From NCBI GenBank assembly GCA_024408075.1, contig JAKSVK010000007.1, forward strand, positions 1 through 59,339: a stretch of DNA of 59,339 nt, read 5' to 3'. The position numbers and the translations under genes were made by a program. The stretch's first letter is position 1; every line of letters starts with the position of its first letter. Positions 4,244 to 40,999 of the stretch are shown here, piece by piece. Source of the DNA: Bacilli bacterium. GTDB taxonomy: Bacteria; Bacillota_I; Bacilli_A; RFN20; CAG-826. Under the pieces are notes generated by a model that saw nothing but the letters and a program-made list of their open reading frames with translations, made no database searches and was not told the origin of the DNA.

Positions 4244-4270
4244 ACATTATTTATTTTATAAATAAATTAA

Positions 4271-4299
4271 TTCATTTTAAAGTACTATTTAAGTATAAT
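4271..4299 (+). promoter_or_regulatory. Promoter of the DUF4185/ATPase pair (leaderless)
   Basis: TTCATT (4271-4276), a 17-bp spacer and TATAAT (4294-4299). The -10 box ends 6 bases before ATG 4306 and no ribosome binding site exists between them, so transcription should begin at or beside the start codon. Confidence 0.7.
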
Positions 4300-4305
4300 A
4301 ATTAT

Positions 4306-7980: not shown

Positions 7981-8518
7981 AAGTTGTGATTAATAAGTCG
8001 AGAAAATTAAAAGCAAGAAGAGAAGTAACATTAGAATATATTGAAAATTCACCGCAATTCTTGCTTTTTTTAGCAATTCCAATATAGTAATCGTGACTTT
8101 CTTCAAATGTGATAAATTTATTAATTTTATAGTTTTTATCATTCAATTTAATAGCATATTTTATGTTATTTTGTTCATAAAAAGTATAAGAATCAGAATG
8201 AAAATATGAGAGTGATTTTTCATTAAACTCAATAAATATTTCATTGATTCTTGCTTTTAAAAATTCTTCATCTCTTAAAACAAAAAGATCATAGTCCTTC
8301 TCTCTAGCAGTATTATACTGAAAAGGATAATAAAAACTGTTAGGTTCAGAATAACTAGCTTCAATAGAAAATATATTGCTATTAAATTCTGCTTTTAAAG
8401 CATTAATATCAACATCTTTAAAGGAAGAAATAAATATTTTTACTAAATTAGATTGACGTGAACAAGAACTTAAAAGAGGAGGAATAAATAATAATAACGC
8501 TAGTTTGTTAAATTTCAT
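7973..8518 (-). CDS. Short lipoprotein, possible reduced solute-binding protein (181 aa)
   Basis: Signal peptide with lipobox LSSC (Cys19) predicts a lipid-anchored surface protein. The mature part (about 160 residues) has fragments reminiscent of sugar solute-binding proteins: KIFISSFKDVD near the start, YDLFVLRDEEF in the middle (compare the binding-protein pattern PDxxxxxxxxF), and YYIGIAKKSKN followed by FNFLDLLI near the end. It is less than half the family's normal size of about 420 residues, so the relationship is tentative. Translationally coupled to the ATPase gene through an ATGA overlap (8518-8515) and to the YesL-like gene downstream. Confidence 0.6.
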   Translation of the reverse strand: MKFNKLALLLFIPPLLSSCSRQSNLVKIFISSFKDVDINALKAEFNSNIFSIEASYSEPNSFYYPFQYNTAREKDYDLFVLRDEEFLKARINEIFIEFNEKSLSYFHSDSYTFYEQNNIKYAIKLNDKNYKINKFITFEESHDYYIGIAKKSKNCGEFSIYSNVTSLLAFNFLDLLITTYE

Positions 8519-10389
8519 TTTTTCGGAATTCCTAATTTAAGTATTGGTTGTTTAACCATATCTATTTTCTTATCCAAAATAGCAGTTAAATATCCTTTCA
8601 TCCCTTTTATTTTATAATATAACAAAGTATTACCGTTATAATCTTCTGCATTTAAACATATTGCTTTTGCTTTATAGAATTCTTCTTTATTGGTAAGAAT
8701 GGTTTTTCTATTAGTTATCACTCTAACACCCATTAAAGGGATTTTAATGTTGTCATTACTTCTGATTTTTAATGCCTTCTTAACTAAAGCAATATCATTT
8801 TCTTTAACTTCATTAACAATATCATAACGAGAAAGTATTGGAGTATTGTCTACTTTATGGAAATTAATATAGTCATAACCGACATACATAGTGACATCAT
8901 CTCCAACATTAATTTTCTTATCTTTACTTAAATAGAAGAATAACGGTTCTTTTCTATCTTTAATTTCTACAAATATTGCGTTTCTATTAAATAAGTTTTT
9001 AACAAGAACTACCTTTCCAGTAATGGAAACAGAATCAGGAATTTCTTCAAGAGTAATGTTTTCTGTATCAAATGAAACATTTAATTTTCCACTCTTTTCT
9101 ATAGAAGTAATTACTCTTTTTCCTATAGGATAGGTATGACTTTTTGAAGCAAGAGAGAAAACAATGTTTTTATCGTTAATTTTGTAATCTACATTTTTAA
9201 TTGTAAGAGTTTTAGTTGTACCGAAAATTGATCTTTCACTTGTAGGATCAAAAAGCTTCATTTTTGCTGTATGAGCATATAATTCTATTGTATCTCCAAT
9301 TTTTGGATTAACATCGTTTGGAATAAATACATCAATATTATTTCCTTCTGCGATTTTAACTTTAATTAATGTTTCACTACCAAATAATTCTTTGTAAAAA
9401 ACTTCTCCATGAATCATAGAATAATGTTCTATGTGTTCTGGTTTACTCACTCTATAAGATGTTGGCCTAAATCCAACTTTTACCTCTTTTCCAACCATAG
9501 AATAATCAAGGAATTCATTAATCAAATCATTTGGAATATATAGTTTGTCATTATTTTTAAGTTCTACATATAATGAGCCTTTTTCTTCTAATAAAGTTCC
9601 ATCAATTATAGACATACTTGGAGAACCAAAAAATGTAGCAACAAACAAATTACTTGGTTCATCATAAATTTCTTTTGGACTACCTATTTGTTGAATAACC
9701 CCAAGCTTTAAAACAATAATCTTATCTGCCATTGTCATTGCTTCAACTTGATCGTGAGTAACATAAATAAATGGCTTTTTAACATTTTGATGAAGCGATT
9801 TAATAACTTTTCTCATTTCTACTCTGAGTTTAGCATCAAGGTTAGAAAGAGGTTCATCAAGAAGGAAAACATCGTTATTTCTAACAAGTGCTCTAGCTAA
9901 AGCAACACGTTGTTTTTGTCCTCCAGAAAGTTGTTTTGGTTTACGTGAAAGATAAGCAGTAAGTTCAAGTTTCTCTGCCACTTCTTTTACTTTTTCATCA
10001 ATTTCTGTTTTTGGAATTGAGGAAGTTTTATATCTAACTACTTCGCCAGCTTCATTTGTAATAGGAGTTTTGATTTTTTTAAGTTTCAATCCAAAGGCGA
10101 TGTTTTCATATACAGTTAAATGAGGATATAAAGCATAATTTTGGAAAACCATAGAGATATTTCTATCTTTTGGATGAACTTCATTAATTATTTTTCCATC
10201 CATTTTAATAGTACCAGTAGTAACTTCTTCAAGTCCTGCAAGCATTCTTAAAAATGTGGATTTGCCACAACCAGATGGACCAACTAATACGGTGAATTGT
10301 CCTTTTTCAATTTCAAAAGAAACATCTTCAATAGCGTGGACGCCACCTTCGTATAGTTTGTTAATTCGATGAAATTCAATATATGCCAT
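8515..10389 (-). CDS. MalK/UgpC-like sugar ABC ATPase with long C-terminal extension (624 aa)
   Basis: Walker A GPSGCGKST (37-45), signature LSGGQ (154-158), Walker B VFLLDEP (174-180) and H-loop His212 are intact, and KVGFRPTSYRVS marks the MalK-type regulatory domain. There is a small insertion (about 105-125) before the signature. The canonical protein would end around residue 375 after KLFDPTSERSIFG, but here about 245 further residues continue as beta-rich sequence with several OB/TOBE-like repeats. I know of no standard role for such a tail. SD AGGAG precedes the ATG, and the stop codon of the upstream DUF4185 gene is embedded in this site. Likely energises import by the permeases at 19047-20826. 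Confidence 0.9.
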   Translation of the reverse strand: MAYIEFHRINKLYEGGVHAIEDVSFEIEKGQFTVLVGPSGCGKSTFLRMLAGLEEVTTGTIKMDGKIINEVHPKDRNISMVFQNYALYPHLTVYENIAFGLKLKKIKTPITNEAGEVVRYKTSSIPKTEIDEKVKEVAEKLELTAYLSRKPKQLSGGQKQRVALARALVRNNDVFLLDEPLSNLDAKLRVEMRKVIKSLHQNVKKPFIYVTHDQVEAMTMADKIIVLKLGVIQQIGSPKEIYDEPSNLFVATFFGSPSMSIIDGTLLEEKGSLYVELKNNDKLYIPNDLINEFLDYSMVGKEVKVGFRPTSYRVSKPEHIEHYSMIHGEVFYKELFGSETLIKVKIAEGNNIDVFIPNDVNPKIGDTIELYAHTAKMKLFDPTSERSIFGTTKTLTIKNVDYKINDKNIVFSLASKSHTYPIGKRVITSIEKSGKLNVSFDTENITLEEIPDSVSITGKVVLVKNLFNRNAIFVEIKDRKEPLFFYLSKDKKINVGDDVTMYVGYDYINFHKVDNTPILSRYDIVNEVKENDIALVKKALKIRSNDNIKIPLMGVRVITNRKTILTNKEEFYKAKAICLNAEDYNGNTLLYYKIKGMKGYLTAILDKKIDMVKQPILKLGIPKK

Positions 10390-10397
10390 AATTTCTC

Positions 10398-11645
10398 CTA
10401 CTGAAAAGTTATTTCAATAAATGACGGATTATATGCTGGTAACCAAGTAGAACAAAGCATATACATTTTCTTACCATTTTCCTTTTGCAAAGCTTCCATA
10501 CTTAATGGTGCATAGAATGCTCCATTTGGAACAATTCTATTATCATTACCAGGAAATAATGTAATTTTTTGTTTATATGGTCCATCAATTTTATCAGCAG
10601 TATACATCATTGCATAACCACTTGCGCAAGTCATCATGCACCATTTTTTAAGATAAGCATTATAGAATGCACTCATTTCACCAAATGCAACTGAAACTAA
10701 TTCTGTAACACTCTTATCTCTAATAAATGCTAAACCATTTTTACCTTTTTTATAAACTGCTTCACCTTCAGAATTATAAGTACCAGTAAAGTATTCATAT
10801 TCTTCGAACACTTCAATATTTTGTTTTAATACTCTACCTAATTTAACACCATGATTACGGTATCCTCCTTCACAAAATAGGTAAATATAACCATCTTTAC
10901 CATCAAGAGGGAAGATTTGTGTAGCATCAAAACCATAGTGATCTTCTATATTAATTGTTCCTACATTAGGAGTGTTAAAAACATCTTCATTAATTAATCC
11001 TTGGATTTTCTCTTTGCTGTTTCTACTTTCAGGATTCACCCAAGTCAAATCATATACTCTAGCCCATGTTTTACCATAATCAGTAGATTTAATACATCCA
11101 CCATAGTTCATCATGTTATCTTGAGGAGCGTTCCAATCATGCATTGAAAAATAATACATATAGATTGTTCCATCAACATCTATAATACCTGTCGGAATTT
11201 TAGTAATTTCATTAACTCCATTATTGTCGTGGTGCCCATTAATTGGACATTTTATATATCCAGCATCGGAGCAAACGAATTCTTCTAAAGTAATTCCATC
11301 ACTTAAGTCTTCAGTATCTGGGCAAGTTCCAATAACATTACTTCTCCACATACCTGTATGAGAAGTGGTAGAAGAGAATGTATCACCAAAATAGAATTGG
11401 AATTGATTTATCTCTTCAACATAAACTGGAAAACCTAAGTCACAACCACCAACACCAATTAAATGCGACTGACCTGGTGAATATTGTCCAGTAGCAAATC
11501 CTAGATTTTTAATGTTATGTACTTTACGGTCATAAGAAATAGTTTCTTCTGGTGGCGGTACTGGTGATGGAGCAGGATTATTTGCTCCACATGATGCAAC
11601 TAAAGAAATAGATGCAATTAATAATGGAAATAATAGTTTTTTCAT
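10398..11645 (-). CDS. DUF4185 (GH183-like) lipoprotein (415 aa)
   Basis: Signal peptide with lipobox LVASC (Cys19) and a proline-rich linker (PAPSPVPPP), so it is displayed on the cell surface. DUF4185 motifs in order: GGCDLGFPVY (66-75), FYFGDTF (84-90), MWRSNV, GTIYMYYFSMHDW, GGCIKSTDYGKTW, QIFPLDGKDGYIYLF, GEMSAFYNAYLKKW, DGPY, and a terminal YNPSFIEITF. This family includes endo-acting D-arabinanases (GH183), so glycan cleavage outside the cell is the likely role. It is the last of four tandem paralogues. The pair with its upstream neighbour (11663) looks closest, suggesting tandem duplication. Confidence 0.85.
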   Translation of the reverse strand: MKKLLFPLLIASISLVASCGANNPAPSPVPPPEETISYDRKVHNIKNLGFATGQYSPGQSHLIGVGGCDLGFPVYVEEINQFQFYFGDTFSSTTSHTGMWRSNVIGTCPDTEDLSDGITLEEFVCSDAGYIKCPINGHHDNNGVNEITKIPTGIIDVDGTIYMYYFSMHDWNAPQDNMMNYGGCIKSTDYGKTWARVYDLTWVNPESRNSKEKIQGLINEDVFNTPNVGTINIEDHYGFDATQIFPLDGKDGYIYLFCEGGYRNHGVKLGRVLKQNIEVFEEYEYFTGTYNSEGEAVYKKGKNGLAFIRDKSVTELVSVAFGEMSAFYNAYLKKWCMMTCASGYAMMYTADKIDGPYKQKITLFPGNDNRIVPNGAFYAPLSMEALQKENGKKMYMLCSTWLPAYNPSFIEITFQ

Positions 11646-11662: not shown

Positions 11663-12925
11663 TTATTTAAAAGTCACTTCATATAAACTTGGGTTATAAC
11701 AAGGAATCCAAGAAGAAGTGAATATATACATTTTCTTGCCATTTTCAGCAAGCATTTTAGCGTGAGTTTGAGGAGCATAAGCACTAACAATTGGCTTTCC
11801 AGTAGTGCTACTAATTGGACATATCTCATCACCTTGAGTATAGATTAAGTATGTTTCATTATATGGACCATAAACCTTATCAGAAAGAAACATTCTAACT
11901 CCTCCAGTAGTTGAAGTTAGTAAACAATATTTATTTAAATATGGATTATATACCACACTCATTTCACCGAAATTCATTGTCGTAATCTCAGCTTTAGTAT
12001 TGTTATATAACGCTTTAAGACCATCATATCCTTTTAAATAGGTAGGATTTCCATCATTATCATATCCTTGCATATATTCGTATTCGTCCCACTTTTCAAT
12101 ATTTGTAGGAGTAACACGAGCAAGTTTTAATGGATGATTACGATATCCACCTTCTAAGAATAAATAAATATAACCATCATCAGCATAATATGGACAAATT
12201 TGAGTAGCATCAAAACCAAAATGATCTTCAATGTTTACTACATTTTCATCTAATGGAGTATTAAAAATATCTTCATTAATAAGTTTAGTAATAGATTCTT
12301 TGCTATTATTGCTTCCATAACTACCATCAGGAGAAAAGTTAGTCCAAACTAAATCATAAATTCTTTCCCATGTTTCTCCATTATCGCTAGATTTAACACA
12401 ACCACCAAAATTCATGCGATTATCTAAGTTAGCGCTCCAATCATACATAGAGAAGAAATACATATAAATTGTTCCGTTTACAAATACTAGTCCAGTCGGA
12501 ATTTTAGTAACTTCATATTGACCGTCACCTGAATGATGGCCATTTATGATAGGTTTTAGGTATCCTGCAGCGTTTTTAAGGTAATCATCAAGAATTAATC
12601 CATCCGCATAGTTAAAGTCGCTAGAAACGCACGCTACATTACTTCTCCATTGACCTGATTGATGGTTTTGAGAGAATGTATCACCAAAAAAGTAATTCAT
12701 CTTACCAGTTGTTTCGTTATAAACTGGATATCCTAAATCGCAACTACCTAACCCAAATTCCATTGTGTTATAAGGAGCTTCGGCGCCAGTAATATATCCA
12801 ATTCTTCTTACATTTAAAATATGTTCATCTTTAGAGAAGTAATGTGGATCAACTCCACCTCCACCACAGCTTGTTATTGGTAGAGCAGTTAATAATAATG
12901 CAAATAAGACAAATCTGATTTTCAT
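11663..12925 (-). CDS. DUF4185 (GH183-like) lipoprotein (420 aa)
   Basis: Signal peptide ends in lipobox ITSC (Cys20) followed by GGGG, giving a lipid-anchored protein. Motifs match the paralogue at 10398: GSCDLGYPVY, YFFGDTF, QWRSNV, GTIYMYFFSMYDW, GGCVKSSDNGETWER, DDGYIYLFLEGGYRNH, GEMSVVYNPYLNKY, YGPY and YNPSLYEVTF at the end. Both share an IEDHFGFDATQI or IEDHYGFDATQI segment not seen in the other paralogues, so these two are probably the most recent duplicates. The start lies 2 bases after the upstream stop, so translation is probably coupled. Confidence 0.85.
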   Translation of the reverse strand: MKIRFVLFALLLTALPITSCGGGGVDPHYFSKDEHILNVRRIGYITGAEAPYNTMEFGLGSCDLGYPVYNETTGKMNYFFGDTFSQNHQSGQWRSNVACVSSDFNYADGLILDDYLKNAAGYLKPIINGHHSGDGQYEVTKIPTGLVFVNGTIYMYFFSMYDWSANLDNRMNFGGCVKSSDNGETWERIYDLVWTNFSPDGSYGSNNSKESITKLINEDIFNTPLDENVVNIEDHFGFDATQICPYYADDGYIYLFLEGGYRNHPLKLARVTPTNIEKWDEYEYMQGYDNDGNPTYLKGYDGLKALYNNTKAEITTMNFGEMSVVYNPYLNKYCLLTSTTGGVRMFLSDKVYGPYNETYLIYTQGDEICPISSTTGKPIVSAYAPQTHAKMLAENGKKMYIFTSSWIPCYNPSLYEVTFK

Positions 12926-12927
12926 AA

Positions 12928-14064
12928 TTAATTCTTTTCAAATTCTAAATGTACCGTAATTGGGTTATAAAGAGGAATCCATTGAGAGAGGAGTAAATAT
13001 ACATCCTTCCCATTATTTTTTGTTAAGGTCTCATGTGTCATTGGCGCATACATTCCTACAATTGCAAGTTTAGGATCATCCTTATCTGCAATCTTGATAA
13101 AATCTTTATATGGTCCAACAAGAGTGTCGCTCATAAACATATATAGACCAGCTTCAGTATTTCCTTCATTAGGTTTATCTGTAGTCATAAATATGCAGTA
13201 TTTCTTTAAGTACTCATTATAAATTAATGACATTTCTCCTGAATTAGCATCACATACATTAGGGACTTTACCTAAATGCATCATTCTTCTAGCCTTATCG
13301 CCTTTTTCAAATATAGCTTTTCCATTTTCGTATCTTATAAGGTATTCATACTCAGAATATTTCTCAATATCTTCGTATTTAACTCTCCCTAGTCTAAGAG
13401 GATTATTTCTATATCCACCTTCAGCAAATAAATATACATATCCATCTTTCCCATCATAAGGAAATATCTGAGTGAATGAATGATTTAAATGTGATTTAGG
13501 TTCAATTTTCTTTTTTATTGGTTTGAAATTATTGTCCTCATTCATAATTTCTATAGCAATTGGCTTACTTAGATCATTTAAGAATGTGACATCATTTACT
13601 TTTTCCCAAGTTTTACCTTGATCAATTGATTTACATAATCCACCTAAATTCATTCTTCTATTTGGAGCGTATTTCCATTGATGCATAGAGAAATAATAGA
13701 AATAATAAACTCCATTGACCTCTATTGCACCCGTAGGTATACGAGTTACCTCATACTTGAATTTATGATGTCCTTCGCTAAGAACATGAGCTTTGTTTTC
13801 TAAAGTGTTTAGGAAATGATCGATAATAATTTGACCTTTATCATTAAGCTCTTTAACTAAACACATTGAGTTACTTCTCCAGTCATACTTAAAATTATTT
13901 TCTTGAAAAGTATCACCAAAGAGTAAATAGAGTTTATTACTTACTTTATCGTATAAAGGAAAACCTAAATCAATGCCACCAACTTTATATTTTTTGGTGT
14001 CGTTATAACCTAGTTCTCCCGAGAAAATTCCATTAAATTCGTAAGTTTTAACTCTAATAGACAT
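12928..14064 (-). CDS. Cytoplasmic DUF4185 (GH183-like) protein (378 aa)
   Basis: The motif series GGIDLGFPLY, LLFGDTF, DWRSN, GVYYFYYFSMHQW, GGLCKSIDQGKTWE, HSFTQIFPYDGKDGYVYLFA, GEMSLIYNEYLKKY and QWIPLYNPITV identifies another DUF4185 member. ATG 14064 is chosen; a TTG at 14094 would extend it by 10 residues into the upstream gene but has no usable ribosome binding site. There is no signal peptide or lipobox, unlike the three lipoprotein paralogues, so it should act in the cytoplasm like the protein at 4306. This suggests a division of labour: external paralogues cut polymer, internal ones cut imported oligosaccharides. Confidence 0.85.
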   Translation of the reverse strand: MSIRVKTYEFNGIFSGELGYNDTKKYKVGGIDLGFPLYDKVSNKLYLLFGDTFQENNFKYDWRSNSMCLVKELNDKGQIIIDHFLNTLENKAHVLSEGHHKFKYEVTRIPTGAIEVNGVYYFYYFSMHQWKYAPNRRMNLGGLCKSIDQGKTWEKVNDVTFLNDLSKPIAIEIMNEDNNFKPIKKKIEPKSHLNHSFTQIFPYDGKDGYVYLFAEGGYRNNPLRLGRVKYEDIEKYSEYEYLIRYENGKAIFEKGDKARRMMHLGKVPNVCDANSGEMSLIYNEYLKKYCIFMTTDKPNEGNTEAGLYMFMSDTLVGPYKDFIKIADKDDPKLAIVGMYAPMTHETLTKNNGKDVYLLLSQWIPLYNPITVHLEFEKN

Positions 14065-14071
14065 ATTTAAA

Positions 14072-15349
14072 TTATTTTTTCTTTGTGAAGACAACTTCTA
14101 CTAAGTTTGTCGAATATAAGTTACTTGTCCATTGGCAAATAAACATAAACATTCTTCTGCCATCGTGATCAAACATAACTTCATGAGTAGATCCACCATA
14201 TAAATTAGGAATATTTCCTTGTCCTGCGATAGTAAAAGCAGTTCCAAATGTATATGGATTTTCCATCAATCTCATAACCATATTTGATTGAGCTTGTAAG
14301 TAAGTGACCATATATTTTCCATAATATGGATTATATGAAAAGTTAAGTTCGCCACATTTTGGATCGATAACATAACATGAATCTTTATCTTTAATAAATT
14401 TTAATCCATTCATACCTTTAATATATCTTGGATTATTAGAGTTATCTAAACCTGCAAAATATTCGTATTCATTAATATTTTCAAAATTAGACTTAAGGAC
14501 TCTTGCCATACATGTTCCGCTTTCTCTTCCACCTCTAATACCATAGATGTAAATGTATTCATCTCCGATATCTAATGGATGAATTTGTGAGAATGATTCA
14601 CCTGGTTGACAGACAAAATCATCAGTATGTGCTAACCATTCAAGTCCAGGAACAACAGTCCAAGTAACGCCTTTATCAGTGGATTTAACTACTCTAGAAC
14701 AGAATGTATCCCACATGCCATTTCTAACAACTCCTGGATAATCATGAGTTTGGTTAAACGCATAAACTTCCATATAAAATAAATAATAAATTCCGTTTAC
14801 AACAATTCCACCAGTAGGAATAGTAGTTCCTGCTTTTTTAGAACATATACTTTCTGGAGAAGGAGTCCATCCGTTTCTTCTTGCAACACTATTAGTAACT
14901 GGGGTAATTTGTCTAGTAGCACCAAATGAACCATTAAGTGCGCCTTCCCACATTACACCATTACTAAAGTCAAAATTAGAAGTATATAAAGTAACATTGC
15001 TGTTCCATTCTCCACCCATCATATGTTGTGGATAAGAGTCTCCAAATGTAACAAATAATTTTTTAGCTTCTGAATCATACCAAGTAAAACCTAGATCTGT
15101 ACCACCACATCCATATTGAGAAGTATCAACTACAGAATTTAATCCTGCAGCTCTAGAATGAACTCTTGCATATTGAATGTGCCTTGTGCCATCGACACAC
15201 CAGGAATCTTGTGGATTAACTGGGAATGGATCTACTGGATCTGGTGGAACTGGAGAAGGATTATTTCCCCCTGTAGAACCACAGCCTGTGAGAAGACTGA
15301 TCGCAAAAAATGGTACTAATGCGAACAATAATCTTGCTTTATTCTTCAT
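14072..15349 (-). CDS. DUF4185 (GH183-like) lipoprotein (425 aa)
   Basis: Lipobox LTGC (Cys23) then a Ser/Gly/Pro-rich linker. It is the most divergent paralogue: GGTDLGFTWY, FGDSY instead of GDTF, EWNSNV, GIYYLFYMEVYAF, RVVKSTDKGVTW, SQIHPLDIGDEYIYIYG with GGR, GELNFSYNPYYGKY and FICQWTSNLYSTN near the end. The SQIHP and GIRGGRESG segments resemble the cytoplasmic protein at 4306 more than its neighbours. It is the first of the four tandem DUF4185 genes and lies after a stem-loop (15378-15400) that separates it from the surface-protein gene. Confidence 0.85.
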   Translation of the reverse strand: MKNKARLLFALVPFFAISLLTGCGSTGGNNPSPVPPDPVDPFPVNPQDSWCVDGTRHIQYARVHSRAAGLNSVVDTSQYGCGGTDLGFTWYDSEAKKLFVTFGDSYPQHMMGGEWNSNVTLYTSNFDFSNGVMWEGALNGSFGATRQITPVTNSVARRNGWTPSPESICSKKAGTTIPTGGIVVNGIYYLFYMEVYAFNQTHDYPGVVRNGMWDTFCSRVVKSTDKGVTWTVVPGLEWLAHTDDFVCQPGESFSQIHPLDIGDEYIYIYGIRGGRESGTCMARVLKSNFENINEYEYFAGLDNSNNPRYIKGMNGLKFIKDKDSCYVIDPKCGELNFSYNPYYGKYMVTYLQAQSNMVMRLMENPYTFGTAFTIAGQGNIPNLYGGSTHEVMFDHDGRRMFMFICQWTSNLYSTNLVEVVFTKKK

Positions 15350-15426: not shown

Positions 15427-17856
15427 TTATTTATCTTCTTTGCGTTTTTTAATAGCAATTAATCCAACACCAAGTGCAGAAATAACCGCTAAGACTCCGC
15501 TAGTAGCAATAATAGAACCGCCACAGCCTTTTTTCGCAGGTGCTGGTGCTGGTGCAGCTACGATTGTTAATTTATATTCGAGTTCGAGATATTGTCCACT
15601 GCCATCTGTTAAGATGATATAGACTTTATGTTCGCCCACTTTTAAACCATCAAGATATGATTGTTTGAGATTAACTGTAACGCTTGTTTTATCTTCATCT
15701 GCTGTGTAATCAACACCTTCTGTGAGATATCCAGTTAATGAATCGACTGCAACGCTATCGAGCATACCAACATCAGTTAAGTTAGCAACGATATCCAAAC
15801 CTGCAAGAGTACCTTTTGTATAGCTACCACTTGTAGTAACCAAGTCACCAAGTTTCTTATTCCATCTCTTTAATGAGACATTTGTAACTCTAAGTTCTTG
15901 TTCAGCATTACCGTTATACATCATTAAGAATCTAATTGAGTTAGTTGATGTAGTAGTTGCTGTATCAATTCTGAGTGAAGTTTCTACGTGTGTATAACCA
16001 TTTTCTAATTCAGTATATTTGATTGGCCAAGTTCTATATTTAGCAGCTGGTTCTTTAGTAACTTCTGGTTTGGAGTTATTTAATGGAATTAAGTGATAAG
16101 AAGTATTTGCACTTCCAACCCATGAAACATCGACTGCTCCATCAGTTGTTGCTCCACCAGTGTATTTGTAATCAAATGCAAATGTAACAATTGTATCGAC
16201 TACAATCTTCTCTGGGTGATAAATAACAAATGATGAGGAATAGCTCTTTGTTGAACCTTCTGGTTTCTTGAATTGTAATGCGTGGCCGTCGCCTTCTTCA
16301 ATGACAACTCCGCCATCATCATATTGGACTGCTCCCCATGCATATTGTGTTTGTTCTTCTTTCATTCTGTAACCAGGTTCAAGATCCATGAAGTCACCAC
16401 CAAAGACTGTTTCTTCTAAGACATAGTCATTAACATCTGGTAAATCTTCTTGAACGTGAGTGATTTCAATAGTGAATGTTCTTGGTGCTAAACCAATAAG
16501 AGTGAATTCATGGATTCCATCACTATAGTACATATTTAAGAAGTCTTTATGTATAATAACTGTTCCGGTTGGGAGATCGAAATCATAGTCTTCACCTTGC
16601 TCTAATTCATAACCAACAGCATCTTCGATAGAAATTGCTGTAGCACCTTTTAAATCGGTAATTTTGAATTTAACGTCTTTATCTTCTTCTTCAATGAATG
16701 AGAAGCTATAAAGATCACATTCAAATACTGGTCTATTATCAACTGGAGCTGAAATTTTTCTAAGTTCAACATTATCAATATCTAATGTAGCACCAATTCT
16801 ACCGTTAGTATTTGCCCAGAATTGGAATGAATCAACACTGTCCGCGTATGCTTGTGTTAATTCAATGCCTTCGTTTGGATAACGGAATGAAACTGTAGTC
16901 CATTCACCAACTGGAGCAGCATTAACTTGTGCAGTTAAATCTCTTTCGATTCTGCCCATTGGACTATAGAATGCAAAGCCAACGTTATCAGTTGTTCCAA
17001 ATGCATCATTTCTTCTAACATCTAATTCAACAAGATATTCTCCTGCTGGGATACCTGCTGGCCATGAGCCATTAAAGTCATTTAAGAATGAACAGAAATC
17101 AGCAAATGCAACATCTCCAGCTTCAGAATAGTTGAGTCTTAAGAATTGGTTGTAATCAGATTGTCCTTTTGTTCCTTCATGAGTCCATAAGACTTGTGAA
17201 TCTCTACAACCAATTTTTCCTGAGTGTTGATTGCTCCAACCAGAGAAATCACCTTTTGAAAGATCGATGTTTTCAAATCCAACATCTTTGAAAATGTTGT
17301 CACCAAGAATACCTGCACTGCAGGTTCTAAATTTCATATCTTTGATATCAAGATAGGTGTCTTGGCCACCATTAAGAATCCACATATGGATACCATCAAC
17401 TGGTCCAATTTCTGGATCTGTGAAGTCAATTTTGATTTTAACTTCTGCCCATTGTCCTTTAACTAATTGACCAACGAAGACATTTTCTTTAATTCTGGCG
17501 CCTTGTGCAGTGTTCCAAAAACCAAGACCAATGTTATCTCCTTTGTAATCAGCATCTAATCTCATTGTGGCTGAGAACATATATGTTCCGCCTGTTTTTT
17601 CTGTGCTGTCGAAAAGGAAATAGCCATTGTCACCACCTGCAACAGAGGTCATGCGCATATAACCATCTTCATCTGTGATAGCATTAGTACCCCAAACGCC
17701 TTTTACGCCACTGAAGTAATTGTGTTCGCCATATATATCAACTGATTCAGCATGTGCGCCTAGTGCGACATTCATAACTGGTTGTGCAGTTAGGCCAATT
17801 CCCATTGCAGCTCCAGCGATACCAACGAACGCGAGACTTAATAATTTTTTCTTCAT
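15427..17856 (-). CDS. Secreted multidomain carbohydrate-binding-like surface protein with C-terminal membrane anchor (809 aa)
   Basis: ATG 17856 follows AAGAAAGGAAAATT. An in-frame start at 17907 would put 17 residues before the signal peptide and is rejected. Residues 1-37 are a signal peptide ending AHA. Then come repeated beta-sandwich modules resembling CBM4/9-like domains: GYFLFDSTEKTGGTYMFSA and, in later modules, WTTVSFRYPNEG and VTFAFDYKYTG. These are separated by Ig-like segments (EQGEDYDFDLPTGTVIIHK, TEGVDYTADEDKTSVTVNL). The end is Ala/Pro linker, KKGCGGS, about 20 hydrophobic residues, and KKRKEDK. That is a tripartite anchoring signal with a cysteine in place of LPXTG. No catalytic motif is seen. 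It probably binds glycan at the surface for the neighbouring enzymes. Confidence 0.8.
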   Translation of the reverse strand: MKKKLLSLAFVGIAGAAMGIGLTAQPVMNVALGAHAESVDIYGEHNYFSGVKGVWGTNAITDEDGYMRMTSVAGGDNGYFLFDSTEKTGGTYMFSATMRLDADYKGDNIGLGFWNTAQGARIKENVFVGQLVKGQWAEVKIKIDFTDPEIGPVDGIHMWILNGGQDTYLDIKDMKFRTCSAGILGDNIFKDVGFENIDLSKGDFSGWSNQHSGKIGCRDSQVLWTHEGTKGQSDYNQFLRLNYSEAGDVAFADFCSFLNDFNGSWPAGIPAGEYLVELDVRRNDAFGTTDNVGFAFYSPMGRIERDLTAQVNAAPVGEWTTVSFRYPNEGIELTQAYADSVDSFQFWANTNGRIGATLDIDNVELRKISAPVDNRPVFECDLYSFSFIEEEDKDVKFKITDLKGATAISIEDAVGYELEQGEDYDFDLPTGTVIIHKDFLNMYYSDGIHEFTLIGLAPRTFTIEITHVQEDLPDVNDYVLEETVFGGDFMDLEPGYRMKEEQTQYAWGAVQYDDGGVVIEEGDGHALQFKKPEGSTKSYSSSFVIYHPEKIVVDTIVTFAFDYKYTGGATTDGAVDVSWVGSANTSYHLIPLNNSKPEVTKEPAAKYRTWPIKYTELENGYTHVETSLRIDTATTTSTNSIRFLMMYNGNAEQELRVTNVSLKRWNKKLGDLVTTSGSYTKGTLAGLDIVANLTDVGMLDSVAVDSLTGYLTEGVDYTADEDKTSVTVNLKQSYLDGLKVGEHKVYIILTDGSGQYLELEYKLTIVAAPAPAPAKKGCGGSIIATSGVLAVISALGVGLIAIKKRKEDK

Positions 17857-17925
17857 AATTTTCCTTTCTTCTGCGATTATAATTTGCAGACTTATTAAGT
17901 TTTTCAAAAAATAAATTAGCTATGT

Positions 17926-19035
17926 TTATTTAATGATTTTTACATCCTCCTTCTGAATAATATTCTTCTCGCTTAAGATATTATCATCCACTGGCATTCT
18001 CTCTTGAACTGGAAGCATTTCTTCGCGGTAAGTTGCTTCCCCTTCTTGATACCAATACGCAGTAGCGGAGAAATCGTCACTACGGTGATTAGCGTGACCA
18101 TGTTCAATAGTTACTCTAATCTCTTTTTGGAAAGGAATTGGATCGAGGATGTGATAACGATAATATGTTATTTTTCCTTTCCAATTTGGTTTTCCAGGCA
18201 TAATTACTCCATGATATGGAGCGTTATATTCTTGAGTTGGGCACCAGGAAGTATTGAAATAATCTTCAGTACCTGTCCCATTTAGCGTTGGTAAAGGATC
18301 ACCATCGATAAATATCATATCGTCGCCTTCTCCAACCCAATCCCACTCACTATGTGTTGATAAATTATGAATATTGAGGTTAACACCACAATAGTGTCCT
18401 TTTCCGGTGGTATGAAGGATTAAAAAGTTATCTTCTCCTTTAATATTTGACCCACCAAAACAGAAATCAAAGTTATCTTTTGCTCTATTTTCTTCACTAA
18501 TTCCCTTGCATGGACAAACTCTTCTCCATCTTGCATGGAATCTCATCGGTTCATCGTGTTCTCTTTCTTCATAATCAATATAGAAATATAAAACTAATGT
18601 AGTCATACATTCATTTGTGACTTCAAATCTGGCTTTCTTAAATGGCATTGGCCACCAAGAATTAAAACCTCTTCCATTTTCTGGAGACATTTGAAGTGGA
18701 ACACTAACAAAGTTATGGCATAATCCATGTCCCATGCCAAAGAAATCACCTAATGGTGCTTCTACGGCCGGTTGTTTTTGATCATCCCAATAAATTCTAA
18801 GAATAACTTTTCTTAAAGCGTTCTTTTCAATTTCCCATTCAGGTTGTAAAAAGTTACTAATAGTGATCCAAATATGTCTTACAATACCTGGTTTATCTAT
18901 TTGACCAAAGGTCATTGTTTCATTAGGTTTAACGTAGAATCTATCATCATTACCACCTGTACGGTCATAACTTGATAGTCTTTTTCTTTTAAAATCTAAT
19001 GGTTTATAAATGTTTGAAATGTTTGATAATTCCAT
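17926..19035 (-). CDS. DUF2961 / GH172-like glycosidase (369 aa)
   Basis: Full-length DUF2961 protein: GQIDKPGIVRHIWITI near residues 44-59, PLGDFFGMGHG (94-104), FNSWWPMPF (124-132), GTGTEDYFN (253-261), YRYHILDPIPF (292-302) and TIEHGH (309-314). GH172 members characterised so far act on D-fructofuranosides and D-arabinofuranosides. The conserved acids Glu257 and Glu311 are candidate active-site residues by inference. No signal peptide, so it is cytoplasmic and probably acts on imported oligosaccharides. It lies between the ABC permeases and the surface protein/DUF4185 genes, which makes an exo-D-arabinofuranosidase role attractive. A difructose-anhydride or alpha-fructofuranoside enzyme is the main alternative. 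Confidence 0.85.
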   Translation of the reverse strand: MELSNISNIYKPLDFKRKRLSSYDRTGGNDDRFYVKPNETMTFGQIDKPGIVRHIWITISNFLQPEWEIEKNALRKVILRIYWDDQKQPAVEAPLGDFFGMGHGLCHNFVSVPLQMSPENGRGFNSWWPMPFKKARFEVTNECMTTLVLYFYIDYEEREHDEPMRFHARWRRVCPCKGISEENRAKDNFDFCFGGSNIKGEDNFLILHTTGKGHYCGVNLNIHNLSTHSEWDWVGEGDDMIFIDGDPLPTLNGTGTEDYFNTSWCPTQEYNAPYHGVIMPGKPNWKGKITYYRYHILDPIPFQKEIRVTIEHGHANHRSDDFSATAYWYQEGEATYREEMLPVQERMPVDDNILSEKNIIQKEDVKIIK

Positions 19036-19046
19036 AACCTCTCCTC

Positions 19047-19898
19047 CTATTTAAGACCACTTACTGCAATACCTGCGATAATCTTCTTTTGGAAGATGAT
19101 AAATAAAGTAAGTGGAATAATTATTGATAAAATTGTAGCGGCAATAACAATGCCGTATTCTCCAGAGTAAGTGGAGTTAAGAATTCTAATAACCTGCATA
19201 ACTTGAGCAATTTCTGAGTTATTTACAATAGTTAATGTTGGCCACATAAAGGAGTTCCAATATCCCATAAAGACTGATACACCAATAATAACCATTGGAG
19301 TAACGGACATTGGAAGGAAGACTTTGAAGAAAATCTTAAACCTTGAACATCCATCAATGATTGCGGCTTCTTCTAAACTTCGAGGAATTCCATAGTAGAA
19401 CTGCCTAAAGAAGAAGATGTTATACGCACTAACTAAACCAGGAATAATTAAAACCAATAGCGTATCCGTCATTTGCAGCACACTAACAACTCGTATTGAC
19501 GTTAATAAAATCGTAATTCCTGGAATAAACATAGTTATCAGGAAATAATACCAGAGGAAATTTTTACCTCTAAATTCGAAATTTGCGAATACATATGCAG
19601 CAAACATATTAACTAATAAACTTAATACAACTGCGATAACACTAACTAAGAAAGTGCTACCAATAGAAGAAATGAAGTTATAATCGTTAACTAAATTTGA
19701 AGTGAATATTTTTTCAAAATTCTTTGTATAGAAAACTTTAGGTAACCACTCATTTGGAATAGCCCAAATTTCTGCTTTATTTTTAAATGCTGCAGGTAGC
19801 ATCCAAATAATTGGAAAAAGTATAATTGCAGCAACAATAAGGCAAATTAGTGTGAAGACTATAGTTTTGACAAGTTTACGAACGTTTACATTTCTCAT
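19047..19898 (-). CDS. Sugar ABC transporter permease, MalG-like (283 aa)
   Basis: Six hydrophobic helices with the EAA loop LEEAAIIDGCSRFKIFFKVF followed by LPM, where ATPase subunits dock. The N-terminal helix ends in PIIWMLPAAFKNKAEI, typical of MalG/AraQ-like permeases, and the protein ends IIAGIAVSGLK, the usual GAVKG-type tail. It forms the membrane pore with the permease at 19900. The genes are separated by one base (TAATATG), implying coupled translation. It should import oligosaccharides delivered by the lipoprotein at 20834. Confidence 0.93.
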   Translation of the reverse strand: MRNVNVRKLVKTIVFTLICLIVAAIILFPIIWMLPAAFKNKAEIWAIPNEWLPKVFYTKNFEKIFTSNLVNDYNFISSIGSTFLVSVIAVVLSLLVNMFAAYVFANFEFRGKNFLWYYFLITMFIPGITILLTSIRVVSVLQMTDTLLVLIIPGLVSAYNIFFFRQFYYGIPRSLEEAAIIDGCSRFKIFFKVFLPMSVTPMVIIGVSVFMGYWNSFMWPTLTIVNNSEIAQVMQVIRILNSTYSGEYGIVIAATILSIIIPLTLFIIFQKKIIAGIAVSGLK

Positions 19899-19899
19899 A

Positions 19900-20826
19900 T
19901 TATGCGTCCTCGCTTCTCTTAGTCCTTAATGTTTTAAAGACAACAATATTAACTGCCATAATAAGTAACATTAAAATAATAGCTCCAGCAATAGTAACGT
20001 TATCTGGTCTTGATGGATCTCTAAATGAATTAAATAAATACAAAACTGGAGTCAAAGTGGTGTCTAAAGGAGCACCACCAGTCATCATCATTGGAATTTC
20101 CATCATCTGCATATACGCGGTAACCATATTAATAACTAACAAGACTGTATAATTTTTCATGTTAGGAATGGTGATATAAATCATTTTTTGGAATGAATTA
20201 GCACCATCAACGTTAGCAGCATTATAGTAATCTTCTGGAATATTAATTAAACCAGCGTACATAACTAAAGTGTTATATCCAAAACCAAGCCATAAAGTAG
20301 GAGCAATAATGGCAATGTAAGCTAGTGGAGTTGTGGATGTGAATGAAATAGGATCTTTATCTAGTAAGACACAAATTGAGGTAATCAGACCACCACCATA
20401 GTTAAAAATTAAGTTAAAAATAACACTAGCGATAATTCCTGAAATAAAGAACGGAACATAAATTAATACTTTCACTACTTTTCCAAACTTGTTATTCATT
20501 GCTCTAAGCACACAAGCGAATAAGAATGAGAAAATTAATAGTAAAGCAGAAATAATTGCCGTCATTATTAAAGCATTCAAGAATGATTTGAGATATAACT
20601 TATCCAAAGTGAATAAGTAATTATAGTTTTTAAATCCAACCCAAGCCCCAGTGTTATAGTCTTGGAAACTTCTTACAACTGCAAGAACTAAAGGCAAAAT
20701 GACGAAAACGGAAAGTAAAACGAAAGCTGGTAAGAGCATTAAATACGCGGTTTTGCTTCCACGGTATTTAAAGCGATTATGACGCTTCTTATTTACAACC
20801 TGATATTCGTCAAATGTGTATTCCAT
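19900..20826 (-). CDS. Sugar ABC transporter permease, MalF/UgpA-like (308 aa)
   Basis: A basic N-terminal tail (KKRHNRFKYRGSKTAY) leads into six helices. LPAFVLLSVFVILPL in helix 1 and the EAA loop NAANVDGANSFQKMIYITIP are diagnostic of the MalF/UgpA class. The companion MalG-like gene follows one base after its stop. Together they would make the transmembrane part of an oligosaccharide importer. Confidence 0.93.
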   Translation of the reverse strand: MEYTFDEYQVVNKKRHNRFKYRGSKTAYLMLLPAFVLLSVFVILPLVLAVVRSFQDYNTGAWVGFKNYNYLFTLDKLYLKSFLNALIMTAIISALLLIFSFLFACVLRAMNNKFGKVVKVLIYVPFFISGIIASVIFNLIFNYGGGLITSICVLLDKDPISFTSTTPLAYIAIIAPTLWLGFGYNTLVMYAGLINIPEDYYNAANVDGANSFQKMIYITIPNMKNYTVLLVINMVTAYMQMMEIPMMMTGGAPLDTTLTPVLYLFNSFRDPSRPDNVTIAGAIILMLLIMAVNIVVFKTLRTKRSEDA

Positions 20827-20833
20827 ATACTAT

Positions 20834-22186
20834 TTATTCTGGTTTTTTAGGAAAATCTGGGGAATTAATAATCTCGCTAATAGAAGAATAACAAGCGTTA
20901 ATAGCATTAATAATTGGTGCTTCTGGGTTTAAAGCAACAGTTTCAAGCATGTTAGTAACTGCACAAGCAATAGACCATGGATAAATTGCTTCTGGGATTG
21001 CTTTGCTTGCAACACCATCAATAACGTCAACCCATTCTTTCATTGAAGGAGTAACGTGCTCAGAAATATAGTTTGCAACTGATTTAGTAGCAGCAGCTTT
21101 TGAATAGTAAGCTGCTTGGAAATAACCAGCAGTTCTTTCTGCACTTTCTGCAAAGAACCACTCAATGACTTTAGCTGCTGCTTCTCTATGGGCGGTATCG
21201 CTTTGAGAAGAAATAGCATATGTCCATCCACCATTAGAAGCGGTTACTTTACTTGTATCACCACTCTTAGTAGGAATAACTGCAACACCAATATCACTAG
21301 CTTTTTCTGGGTATGTATGCATAATTTCAGCAATTGACCAACTACCACCAAATGTCATTGCGAGTTTGTTCATCGTTAATGCTTCAATAATATCGTTATA
21401 GCTTCCTTTTGGAGAAACTGCACCTTGTGGCACATAACCATTAATGTATAGTTTTTGCCAGAATTCGCATAAATCTTTATAACCACTATCAGCTGTAACT
21501 AAGCATTGTTTCCAGTCTTCTGAAATTGCAAGGCCATTTGTTAAGTTATATTGCATTCCATAAGTTGCCCATCCTGCGGCAGATCCAATTGGAATACCAA
21601 CACAGTATTGAGCTCTTTTTAAGGTTGGTTTAACTTTTGCACAAGCATCATATAACCAATCCCATGTAAGTTTTCCATCTTCTGGAACAGTAACATTAGC
21701 CCTTGCAAGAGCGCTCTTACTGTAATAGAAGAGGGTACTTGGTTCGGTTAGTTGTGGATAACTCCAAAGATGGCCTCTATATGTCATCATATCTTTAACA
21801 TTATCTTTAATATCATCAAGATATTCTTGTTTGATTAAACCTTCTAATTGAACTGCATCTCCTGTCTCAACTAAATCATTAAAGATGTTTCCATATGAAC
21901 ACATAAAGATATCAGGTGCTTGGCCTTGTTCTTTAGCAACTTTATAAGCATCTGTGTAAGCTTCATCTTCAAAGAATTTGACTCTTAATTGAATACCATC
22001 TGTCATATTGGAGTTAAATTCACTAACTCTACTATTCATATAGTTATTGGACCATTCTTCAAAGTTACGAAGATACATTGTAACTACAGTTGCTCCAGGT
22101 TCTTCTTGTTCTTTTTTTGATCCACATGAAGCTAACAGTGGAATTGCAATAAGAGCAGGAAGCAACATTTTGAGTACTTTTTTCAT
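20834..22186 (-). CDS. Extracellular sugar-binding lipoprotein of the ABC importer (450 aa)
   Basis: Signal peptide with lipobox LLASC (Cys21), then a family-1-type solute-binding protein: VVTMYLRNFEEW at the start, KEQGQAPDIFMCSYG, SYPQLTEPSTLFYYSKSAL, KLAMTFGGSWSI, and a final segment with the usual helical C-terminus. Length is normal. It would capture oligosaccharides outside the membrane and hand them to the permeases encoded directly downstream. The start is 27 bases after the end of the kinase/isomerase gene, with an SD (AGGAG). Confidence 0.93.
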   Translation of the reverse strand: MKKVLKMLLPALIAIPLLASCGSKKEQEEPGATVVTMYLRNFEEWSNNYMNSRVSEFNSNMTDGIQLRVKFFEDEAYTDAYKVAKEQGQAPDIFMCSYGNIFNDLVETGDAVQLEGLIKQEYLDDIKDNVKDMMTYRGHLWSYPQLTEPSTLFYYSKSALARANVTVPEDGKLTWDWLYDACAKVKPTLKRAQYCVGIPIGSAAGWATYGMQYNLTNGLAISEDWKQCLVTADSGYKDLCEFWQKLYINGYVPQGAVSPKGSYNDIIEALTMNKLAMTFGGSWSIAEIMHTYPEKASDIGVAVIPTKSGDTSKVTASNGGWTYAISSQSDTAHREAAAKVIEWFFAESAERTAGYFQAAYYSKAAATKSVANYISEHVTPSMKEWVDVIDGVASKAIPEAIYPWSIACAVTNMLETVALNPEAPIINAINACYSSISEIINSPDFPKKPE

Positions 22187-22213: not shown

Positions 22214-23818
22214 TTATTTCTTTTCACCTTCACGCAATTGGCCTAAGGTTCCGCCTGGATGCCATTTAACATATTGTTTTGGCGAGACTTTAGCGTCTTC
22301 TTGAAGAAGAACACTTAAACCCATTAAAACAAGTAGTTCAGCAATAATTGAAGTACGAGGAGCTCTATTTAATGGGCCTCCTTCATTATCAATATGTGCT
22401 AATAGATGAGCATCACTCATCTTAGCAAGTTTGCTTGAAGCATTTCCGCTTACGCCTATAATCTTGCAGCCATTATTTTTAACTGCGTATAAGGTGTTAA
22501 TTAATTCACTTGTATTTCCGCTGTTGCTTATAGCGATAACAACGTCTCCAGGAACAAGTTGACCTGAGCTACCATGAGCAGCTTCTGTACCATGTAAATA
22601 GTAAGCAGGAGTACCAGTAGAAGAGATTAAAGAAGCAAAATATTGAGCGATGTGTGATGGTTTTCCAATACCAGTAACATGCACTCTATTATTGTTTTCT
22701 TTTGCCTTTAATATGATATCTAAAGCATCCTTATATAAATCTCTATTTATGCTAGATAATGTACGATCAAATTCAAATGTCATGGTATTCTTGAAGACTT
22801 CTAAGGCATCTATTGATTGTTCTTTACAATCGTTAAATAATTTAACGATATGTTTGTATTCAGGATCTTTTAATGTAATAAGATATTCTTTAAGTTCATC
22901 ATAAGTGCATAAGGATGGCATTGCGCCCATTCTTTGCACAGTTAAACTTCCAACTGCGTTAGCAATATAAATACTATCTTTAACTGAATAGCCTTTACTT
23001 AGTGAAGAAACAAATGCTCCAATAAAGGAATCTCCAGCAGCAGTAGGATCAACTGATTTAACATTTTTAACACTTTCAACAAAATAATTTTCTTCTTTAT
23101 TAATAAAACAAGAACCATTACTTCCGAGAGTAATAATTAAATTTGATAAACCTTTGTTGAAAAGTATTTTGCTTCCTTTAAGAATGGATTCTTTATCTAA
23201 AGCACCATCTTTTGTAGTAACTGAGAATCCAGTTTGATCAAAAAATTCGTGTTCATTTGGCATCAAGAAGTCGATGTTTTTAATAAATTCATCACTTATT
23301 TTTTTACTTGGTGCAGGGTTAACGATAACTTTAACTCCCTTTTCATGAGCAATTTTTGCGAGATATTCATTTACTTCCATTGGAATTTCAAATTGAAGAA
23401 TAATGAAGTTATAATTTGTAATTTCATCTTCCAAAAATTTGACATCATCAACTGTTAAACGGAAGTTAGCCCCTGGGGTAAGAAGAATTCTATTTTGATA
23501 ATTTCCGTTTTTATCTTTTTGTAAGATGATTGAAGAAACTCCAGAATTTCCTTTGTCTTGGATAACGTTTTCAACATTGACATTGCTTTTTGCACAAGTT
23601 AAAACCAATTGCTTACCAAAACAATCGTCTCCAACTTTACCAATGAGAGTTGTATCACTATTTAATCGAGCAGCTTGAACTGCTTGGTTAGCGCCTTTTC
23701 CTCCATCAGCTTGACTAAATTTGTTGCCTAAAACCGTTTCACCTTCGTTTGGGATTTTATCTGTCTGTACAATTAAATCCTTAACAAATGAACCAACGAC
23801 TAAAATTCGTTTTTCCAT
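22214..23818 (-). CDS. Fusion of ribokinase-like sugar kinase and arabinose-5-phosphate-isomerase-like SIS domain (534 aa)
   Basis: Residues 1-315 are a PfkB/ribokinase-family kinase: DGGKGANQA (38-46) binds sugar and DPTAAGDSF (257-265) carries the catalytic Asp263 and the anion hole. Residues 325-534 are a SIS-domain isomerase of the KpsF/GutQ/KdsD type: TGIGKPSHIA (382-391), TEAAHGSSGQLVPGDVVIAI (411-430), SNSGNTSE (431-438) and WHPGGTLGQL (519-528). The CBS pair of KdsD is absent, as in the short API forms. KdsD-type enzymes interconvert D-arabinose 5-phosphate and D-ribulose 5-phosphate, and ribokinases phosphorylate pentoses at O5. The fusion could therefore turn D-arabinose into ribulose 5-phosphate. 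It is the first gene of the leftward operon, with an SD (AAAGGA) before ATG 23818. Kinase substrate (D-arabinose, D-ribose or fructose) is inferred from context only. Confidence 0.88.
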   Translation of the reverse strand: MEKRILVVGSFVKDLIVQTDKIPNEGETVLGNKFSQADGGKGANQAVQAARLNSDTTLIGKVGDDCFGKQLVLTCAKSNVNVENVIQDKGNSGVSSIILQKDKNGNYQNRILLTPGANFRLTVDDVKFLEDEITNYNFIILQFEIPMEVNEYLAKIAHEKGVKVIVNPAPSKKISDEFIKNIDFLMPNEHEFFDQTGFSVTTKDGALDKESILKGSKILFNKGLSNLIITLGSNGSCFINKEENYFVESVKNVKSVDPTAAGDSFIGAFVSSLSKGYSVKDSIYIANAVGSLTVQRMGAMPSLCTYDELKEYLITLKDPEYKHIVKLFNDCKEQSIDALEVFKNTMTFEFDRTLSSINRDLYKDALDIILKAKENNNRVHVTGIGKPSHIAQYFASLISSTGTPAYYLHGTEAAHGSSGQLVPGDVVIAISNSGNTSELINTLYAVKNNGCKIIGVSGNASSKLAKMSDAHLLAHIDNEGGPLNRAPRTSIIAELLVLMGLSVLLQEDAKVSPKQYVKWHPGGTLGQLREGEKK

Positions 23819-23931: not shown

Positions 23932-24783
23932 ATGAAAATGCACCTAAAAGACTCTGCTGAGCGCAGACATTACATAGTAAAACGCTATGATACAGTAGAT
24001 ACTAAAATTCAAACTTTATATGCTGGAGAATTTAAGGCTTCTTTAAACAAAAACATTCCTTCTCATTCACATACATTTCTTGAAATCATGTTTGTATCTA
24101 GTGGAAATGGTCAAATTACAATTGATAAAAAAATACATGATGTTCAGATGGGTGACATAGTAATTTACTATCCAAAACAACAACATGTTGAGTGGAGTGT
24201 CAAACCTAATGTTATGTCTACATTATTTTTCTCAGTTAAGCCTAATTCTCAGCTAAGATTAATGTTTAAAACTGCATCACCAGGAAATGTGCTTCATGTT
24301 CAAAACGAATATAGAGATTACTATAGTGTTTTTACTCTTTTAGTCAAAGAAGCAAAAAATGAAAATAAAAATTATTTTGACAAAATTGTTAACTGCTTAG
24401 CTAAAACAATTATTTTAAAAATTTTGCAACATTCAAGTTTAATTGAGGCAAAAGAAACAAACGAAACAGTTAATCGCATTAAAGACTATATCGATGAGCA
24501 TTATTTAGAGGATTTATCTTTGATCAATCTATATAAAAAGTTATACATTTCTGAGTTTTATGGCTCACGTTTATTTAAACAATATATTGGTACAACTCCT
24601 GTTTCTTATATTATTTCAAAACGTATGAGAGAAGCCCAAAACATGTTAGGTAATACAAACGAGACAATTACATCTATTGCATATAAATTAGGATATAAAG
24701 ATATTTACTATTTTACTAAGATATTTAAAAAAGAAGTTGGAGTTTCTCCTTCAGCATATAGAAAATCAATAAGCAACAAATAA
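23932..24783 (+). CDS. AraC-family transcriptional regulator with cupin sensor domain (283 aa)
   Basis: The N-terminal half is an AraC-type cupin: IPSHSHTFLEIMFVSSG and DIVIYYPKQQHVEW carry the usual His-rich ligand-binding pattern. The C-terminal 100 residues hold two HTH motifs: LSLINLYKKLYISEFYGSRL and ETITSIAYKLGYKDIYYFTK, ending FKKEVGVSPSAYRKS, a very well conserved AraC tail. It is divergent from the 13-gene sugar operon, so it probably activates that operon in response to an arabinose-type sugar. TATAGA (23925-23930) ends 7 bases before a second in-frame ATG at 23938, so a leaderless start there is possible. Confidence 0.93.
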   Translation: MKMHLKDSAERRHYIVKRYDTVDTKIQTLYAGEFKASLNKNIPSHSHTFLEIMFVSSGNGQITIDKKIHDVQMGDIVIYYPKQQHVEWSVKPNVMSTLFFSVKPNSQLRLMFKTASPGNVLHVQNEYRDYYSVFTLLVKEAKNENKNYFDKIVNCLAKTIILKILQHSSLIEAKETNETVNRIKDYIDEHYLEDLSLINLYKKLYISEFYGSRLFKQYIGTTPVSYIISKRMREAQNMLGNTNETITSIAYKLGYKDIYYFTKIFKKEVGVSPSAYRKSISNK

Positions 24784-25849: not shown

Positions 25850-25874
25850 TATTAATTTATCTCCTTAAAAATTC

Positions 25875-28456: not shown

Positions 28457-28458
28457 AT

Positions 28459-29703: not shown

Positions 29704-29717
29704 CGCTTCTCCTTTCT

Positions 29718-33101: not shown

Positions 33102-33106
33102 AATTC

Positions 33107-34192: not shown

Positions 34193-34198
34193 ATCTCT

Positions 34199-35494: not shown

Positions 35495-35505
35495 AAAGTC
35501 TCACC

Positions 35506-39132: not shown

Positions 39133-39134
39133 AA

Positions 39135-39587: not shown

Positions 39588-39589
39588 AA

Positions 39590-40949: not shown

Positions 40950-40959
40950 TAACAAAATA

Positions 40960-40988: not shown

Positions 40989-40999
40989 TGAAGAAGGTT

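Follow-up and report, generated by a model that had tools for sequence, protein, structure and literature searches.

The window, a 59,339-nucleotide stretch of DNA from a small Bacilli bacterium of the gut or rumen, carries a gene in which a PfkB-family sugar kinase is fused to a SIS-domain isomerase. Judged by its sequence and surroundings, the encoded protein probably combines a D-arabinose 5-kinase with a D-arabinose-5-phosphate isomerase and acts after the breakdown of D-arabinan. The gene is a single intact minus-strand reading frame of 534 amino acids without internal stops, with the following parts:

22214..23818, minus strand: PfkB-SIS fusion gene, 534 aa, stop codon included
22913..23812, minus strand: PfkB (ribokinase-type) domain, residues 3-302 (Pfam PF00294, 4.1e-57)
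22694..22912, minus strand: linker followed by the N-terminal helices of the SIS half (residues 303-375), with model confidence lowest near 331-340
22325..22693, minus strand: SIS (KpsF/GutQ-like) domain, residues 376-498 (Pfam PF01380, 1.8e-19)
23534..23536, minus strand: codon of Ser95, the counterpart of E. coli ribokinase Ala98 by alignment

An earlier note on this DNA had placed the gene correctly at 22214-23818, but its strand has to be corrected to minus; the plus-strand translation of the same interval is riddled with stops. The note's claim that PfkB and SIS parts share one reading frame is borne out by the 534-residue frame, by four motifs (GGKGAN at residues 39-44, DPTAAGDSF at 257-265, SNSGNTSE at 431-438 and WHPGGTLG at 519-526) and by two Pfam matches. 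With 194.2 bits against a cut-off of 25.8, and with GGKGAN and GAGD-type motifs, the N-terminal half belongs to the PfkB family (PF00294), and 70.2 bits against a cut-off of 25 places the C-terminal half among the SIS domains (PF01380). Both scores exceed the gathering scores, so the matches are not due to chance. An AlphaFold model built with 87 aligned sequences has a mean pLDDT of 92.5, with both domains confident and a weaker block around residues 331-340. A syntenic fusion with 69% identity in a second genome and fused versions in two clostridial genomes show that the fusion is not an assembly accident at a single site.

The fusion gene heads a minus-strand run that continues with a sugar-binding protein, two permeases, a GH172 protein, a secreted protein, four GH183 proteins and an ABC ATPase:

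23932..24783, plus strand: AraC-family regulator, transcribed divergently from the fusion gene
20834..22186, minus strand: ABC sugar-binding protein (SBP_bac_8)
19900..20826, minus strand: ABC permease 1, an open reading frame with counterparts in syntenic loci
19047..19898, minus strand: ABC permease 2, an open reading frame with counterparts in syntenic loci
17926..19035, minus strand: GH172 (DUF2961), predicted exo-alpha-D-arabinofuranosidase (PF11175, 1.5e-81)
15427..17907, minus strand: secreted or anchored protein with a weak, sub-threshold CBM_X2-like match and a homologue in the same place in genome G136
14072..15349, minus strand: GH183 (DUF4185), predicted endo-D-arabinanase (PF13810, 2.8e-49)
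12928..14094, minus strand: GH183 (DUF4185) (PF13810, 1.4e-43)
11663..12925, minus strand: GH183 (DUF4185) (PF13810, 6.2e-49)
10398..11645, minus strand: GH183 (DUF4185) (PF13810, 5.8e-49)
8515..10389, minus strand: ABC transporter ATPase (MalK-like), likely to energise the importer (PF00005)
4252..5457, plus strand: divergent copy of GH183 (DUF4185) (PF13810, 4.6e-54)

GH183 enzymes have been shown to be endo-D-arabinanases and GH172 enzymes exo-alpha-D-arabinofuranosidases (PMC10115798, PMC10509167). Five PF13810 proteins, one PF11175 protein and an ABC system together make this a D-arabinan utilisation locus, defined as GH183 with GH172 and/or GH116 and a transporter; no GH116 was detected among the window proteins scanned. 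All five GH183 copies contain a DLG...FGD motif with two Asp residues about 19 residues apart, and we infer that these are the catalytic Asp pair of the literature. The large secreted protein at 15427-17907 is perhaps a D-arabinan-binding surface protein. By eye, the next cluster (24839-42070) seems to encode subunits of xanthine dehydrogenase type, PLP enzymes, a carbamoyltransferase and a peptidase-like hydrolase, which would suit purine or ureide breakdown.

In the proposed pathway, secreted GH183 enzymes would cut D-arabinan, the ABC system would import the oligosaccharides and GH172 would free D-arabinose. The PfkB half would then phosphorylate D-arabinofuranose at O5 with ATP to give D-arabinose 5-phosphate, which the SIS half would convert to D-ribulose 5-phosphate. 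Ribulose-phosphate 3-epimerase and transketolase, both present in the window genome (G000), would feed this product into the pentose phosphate pathway. The earlier suggestion that a D-pentose released by the locus could reach that pathway is thus supported by these two enzymes and by the D-arabinan enzymes of the locus. Fixed stoichiometry or channelling may be what is gained from the fusion. The established D-arabinose route of an isomerase followed by an FGGY kinase is not visible in this 94.5% complete draft genome, since no FGGY_N kinase was detected and the C-domain of fucose isomerase gave only a sub-threshold match of 19.6 bits; we rejected the ribulokinase route on these grounds.

The cell walls of mycobacteria and their relatives are characterised by D-arabinan, a polymer of D-arabinose, itself a rare sugar. 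It was not until 2023 that genes for breaking it down were identified, and the fate of the D-arabinose set free was mostly left unexplained or ascribed to an unspecified isomerase and kinase. The fusion predicts a kinase-first route via D-arabinose 5-phosphate. If this is correct, a gene pair that many gut bacteria carry would gain a function, and D-arabinose 5-phosphate could be produced with a natural kinase, a purpose for which ribokinase of E. coli needed engineering.

The kinase half is closest to ribokinases, both by sequence and by structure, among its best PDB matches. E. coli ribokinase superposes on the AlphaFold model with a target-normalised TM score of 0.95 at 34% identity. The closest curated model is the ribokinase equivalog TIGR02152, which scores 292.6 bits on the protein and 294.5 on the genome; both values lie below the cut-off of 299.65, and the kinase half is not a member by score. 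Of the residues lining the ribose pocket (Asn14, Asp16, Gly42, Lys43, Asn46, Glu143, Asp255 and Ala98), six contacts are kept, including the catalytic Asp; Asn14 is replaced by Val and Ala98 by Ser, so the full pocket of a TIGR02152 ribokinase is not conserved. Ala98 of E. coli ribokinase is oriented towards the 2'-OH of D-arabinose, and kcat for this sugar rises 15-fold in the A98G mutant (PMC9604405). The corresponding mutation of a Thermus ribokinase, A92G, is represented in the PDB by entry 8cqx. By alignment, the kinase half carries the class of substitution known to favour D-arabinose.

Among 125 aligned kinases, position 98 is Gly or Ser in 74 of the 81 that are linked to a SIS gene or domain and in none of the 44 unlinked ones, all of which have Ala. 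The equivalent of Asn14 is Asn in none of the linked kinases. The Fisher test for position 98 gives a p of about 1e-26, a value inflated by common descent, as only two independent contrasts underlie it. The linked kinases group almost into a single clade, which has 88% support and includes one unlinked kinase; Gly/Ser at this position is therefore a clade character that reflects few independent events rather than 74, and its statistical weight is small. Seven linked kinases retain Ala98 (L040, L061, L072, L092, L111, L012 and L015), and that of L012 does so despite its GH183 locus. The second PfkB protein of the window genome, on contig C34, is unlinked and keeps Ala98.

For the SIS half the closest curated model is KpsF/GutQ (TIGR00393), with 118.6 bits against a cut-off of 203.7, and PRK10892 gives 111.7 bits against 505. 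Both matches span just the first half of each model, and by score the protein falls outside KpsF/GutQ/KdsD. Pfam detects no CBS domain in the fusion, which stops eight residues after WHPGGTLG and thus lacks a C-terminal CBS pair. The nearest solved structures by sequence are arabinose-5-phosphate and other phosphosugar isomerases (5uqi, 2xhz and 3etn). Alignment to 2xhz and 5uqi pairs K59, H88, E111, E152 and H193, which we take to be the catalytic residues of E. coli KdsD, with K386, H415, E438, E479 and H520 of the fusion, the last just C-terminal of the SIS domain. All five are kept in the four fused sequences of the alignment and in nearly all others. The loop after E479 reads GGPLNRAPR, compared to ACPLGLAPT in E. 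coli KdsD, and its R485 and R488 occur in every fused and paired sequence. The description of this half as KdsD-like in the earlier note therefore holds for fold and catalytic residues but not for formal membership, given the missing CBS domains, the score below the KpsF cut-off and the distinct NRAPR loop. Members of this SIS subfamily (49-55% identity) also occur in PTS operons on an Enterococcus lactis plasmid (L142), in E. gilvus (L144) and on a Clostridioides difficile plasmid (L143), together with an ascorbate-type IIC, a DHDPS-family protein and a KDPG/KHG-type aldolase, and with no PfkB gene. The subfamily may therefore use more than one phosphosugar.

GH183 is present in 9 of 279 genomes of the order. 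PfkB and SIS accompany it in all eight genomes with a readable context, fused in two and as an unfused SIS-then-PfkB pair in six; the ninth (G264), with one fragmentary match, was left out of this count. One relative, G136, has the same locus with conserved synteny and the 69%-identical fusion. In the other six (G089, G090, G110, G137, G138 and G239), GH183 is followed by separate adjacent SIS and PfkB genes, in swapped order compared to the fusion. The SIS proteins of these loci differ strongly from the SIS half of the fusion and come far closer to KdsD (183-187 versus 112 bits with PRK10892). Two SIS lineages and two gene orders thus accompany the same type of kinase beside the same polysaccharide enzymes. 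In G136 the D-arabinan locus occurs in near-identical duplicate on contigs C3 and C7 (L032, L034; L038, L039 in the public sequence), with an in-frame TAA in a GH183 gene of one copy; this may reflect a mixture of strains or a duplication made during assembly.

A scan with the SIS half, using one genome per species, retained 80 loci, almost all of them in Clostridia, Erysipelotrichia or Spirochaetes, some cut by contig ends. In 78 of them a co-directional PfkB gene immediately precedes SIS, as an unfused pair in 74 and fused in four (three genomes). The fusion, whose domain order was unfamiliar to the earlier note as a standard one, is rare without being unique, and the unfused neighbouring pair is common in Clostridia. 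GH183 accompanies all four fused loci and one unfused locus (L117), and in the clostridial set fused versions occur only beside GH183. By Pfam, fused locus L064 contains GH183, GH116 and a DUF6259 protein, and fused locus L087 contains GH183 and GH172, with counterparts of the GH116 and DUF6259 proteins recognised by similar length and sequence start. A candidate new D-arabinan enzyme is encoded in both loci (L064:1732-3975, DUF6259 by Pfam; L087:10683-12872), where its gene separates the fusion from the sugar-binding protein. GH172 lies a few genes from unfused pairs in L047, L072, L073, L096, L106 and L114. Members of the RbsD/FucU family occur in 37 of the 80 loci, most of them immediately downstream, and 23 loci have DHDPS-family aldolases. 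Among 392 sampled genomes of the phylum, this type of SIS was found in the window genome and in seven others of one family only, all of these unfused, and the plasmid collection yielded no fused relative.

In unfused pairs, PfkB (~330 aa) and SIS (~203 aa) are separated by a median gap of 12 bases and amount to ~530 aa end to end; an in-frame loss of the stop would therefore yield the observed length of the fusion. The fusion likely arose twice: the PfkB tree places the fusions of the window and G136 apart from those of L064 and L087, which calls for two changes on its starred branches, and the linkers are unalike, although an AU test on the joined alignment is compatible with a single origin (p 0.20).

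Several other functions can be weighed against the proposed one. The kinase half could be an ordinary ribokinase making ribose 5-phosphate from D-ribose, with the SIS half regulatory or acting on a different phosphosugar. The ribokinase matches, the score close to the TIGR02152 cut-off and the RbsD/FucU proteins adjoining many unfused pairs fit this, but unlinked ribokinases keep the Ala98 that is Ser here, Asn14 is lost as well, the genome has its second PfkB with Ala98, and a KpsF-type isomerase is superfluous for ribose 5-phosphate; we consider it unlikely. It is also quite improbable that the kinase acts on D-arabinose while the SIS half has another phosphosugar or product and D-ribulose 5-phosphate is made elsewhere. 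The NRAPR loop and the PTS-operon homologues without PfkB point that way, whereas all known catalytic residues of arabinose-5-phosphate isomerases are retained, and the much more KdsD-like SIS in the same place of equivalent GH183 loci argues for the same reaction.

GH172 includes difructose-dianhydride/alpha-D-fructofuranosidases, so one could envisage an alpha-D-fructofuranosidase, a fructokinase and a hexose phosphate isomerase working on D-fructofuranose. The five GH183 copies indicate D-arabinan instead, the fructokinase model matches weakly (88.9 of 450 bits) and fructose 6-phosphate needs no KpsF-type isomerase, which makes this very unlikely. We rejected a role in Kdo/LPS biosynthesis because PF00793 (Kdo-8-phosphate synthase, KdsA family) was found neither in the 94.5% complete genome nor in four relatives. 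The KdsD-type catalytic residues would suit a supply of D-arabinose 5-phosphate for Kdo or for a D-arabinose-containing surface glycan, but a kinase is pointless for making it from D-ribulose 5-phosphate and the gene sits among degradative enzymes and an importer, so that such a supply is extremely improbable. Action of the kinase and then the isomerase on a D-pentose, as first put forward in the earlier note, is the best-supported predicted reading, in view of the D-arabinan locus, the pairing of PfkB and SIS beside GH183, Ser95 and the undetected FGGY route.

Bifunctional fusions of ribokinase with ribose-5-phosphate isomerase A, a pentose kinase with a pentose-phosphate isomerase in the ribose pathway, exist, and RpiA is unrelated to SIS. 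Compared to E. coli RbsK (PDB 1rkd), the fusion shares the fold, the catalytic Asp and most ribose-contact residues but differs in Ser at 98, Val at 14, the attached SIS domain and its score just under the TIGR02152 cut-off. With E. coli KdsD, GutQ and KpsF and the single-domain homologues (2xhz, 5uqi, 3etn) it has the SIS family and five catalytic equivalents in common; unlike KdsD/GutQ/KpsF, it has no CBS domains, an NRAPR loop and a predicted catabolic direction. The unfused clostridial PfkB-SIS(-RbsD/FucU) pair consists of the same two proteins in the same order, but as two genes, usually away from D-arabinan enzymes and often near DHDPS-family aldolases or GH172. GH183 and GH172 likewise occur in the D-arabinan loci of Dysgonomonas gadei (PUL42) and Microbacterium arabinogalactanolyticum, in the latter together with an ABC importer that includes an SBP_bac_8 protein; they differ in that D. 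gadei expresses a predicted fucose isomerase and for Microbacterium just "a putative isomerase and kinase" is described, and the passages searched yielded no mention of a PfkB-SIS fusion for either (PMC10115798, PMC10509167). The Rbl system of Citrobacter rodentium also combines a pentose kinase and a KpsF-like isomerase in one catabolic operon, but the kinase is an FGGY D-ribulokinase, the genes are separate and the isomerase is dispensable on D-ribulose (PMC12307932). The literature searched, with most subscription journals outside it, yielded no description of a PfkB-SIS fusion or a PfkB-KpsF D-arabinose pathway; the component families are known, and the combination, the locus and the kinase-first route appear to be undescribed in these papers.

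More tentatively, the PfkB-SIS(-RbsD/FucU) set may be a general kinase-first module for D-arabinose in gut and rumen bacteria, with D-arabinan and Kdo as its two rare sources, a conceivable reading that we hold with some doubt. D-arabinan would be the source in GH183/GH172/GH116 loci, where the set became fused, probably more than once. Kdo would be the source in loci with DHDPS-family aldolases, some with BNR_2, where a Kdo aldolase would yield pyruvate and D-arabinose; synthesis of Kdo from the same compounds is known for NAL enzymes (PMC4016182). If so, arabinose-5-phosphate isomerase would be a catabolic enzyme here and a pointer to Kdo degradation genes. PfkB-SIS pairs lie near DHDPS-family aldolases in L066, L070, L079, L092, L102, L105, L112 and others, and in L046, L077, L086 and L100. 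Some DHDPS-adjacent pairs are also accompanied by a sialidase-like BNR_2 protein, YhcH/DUF386 and TRAP or ABC transporters, and are possible Kdo catabolic operons.
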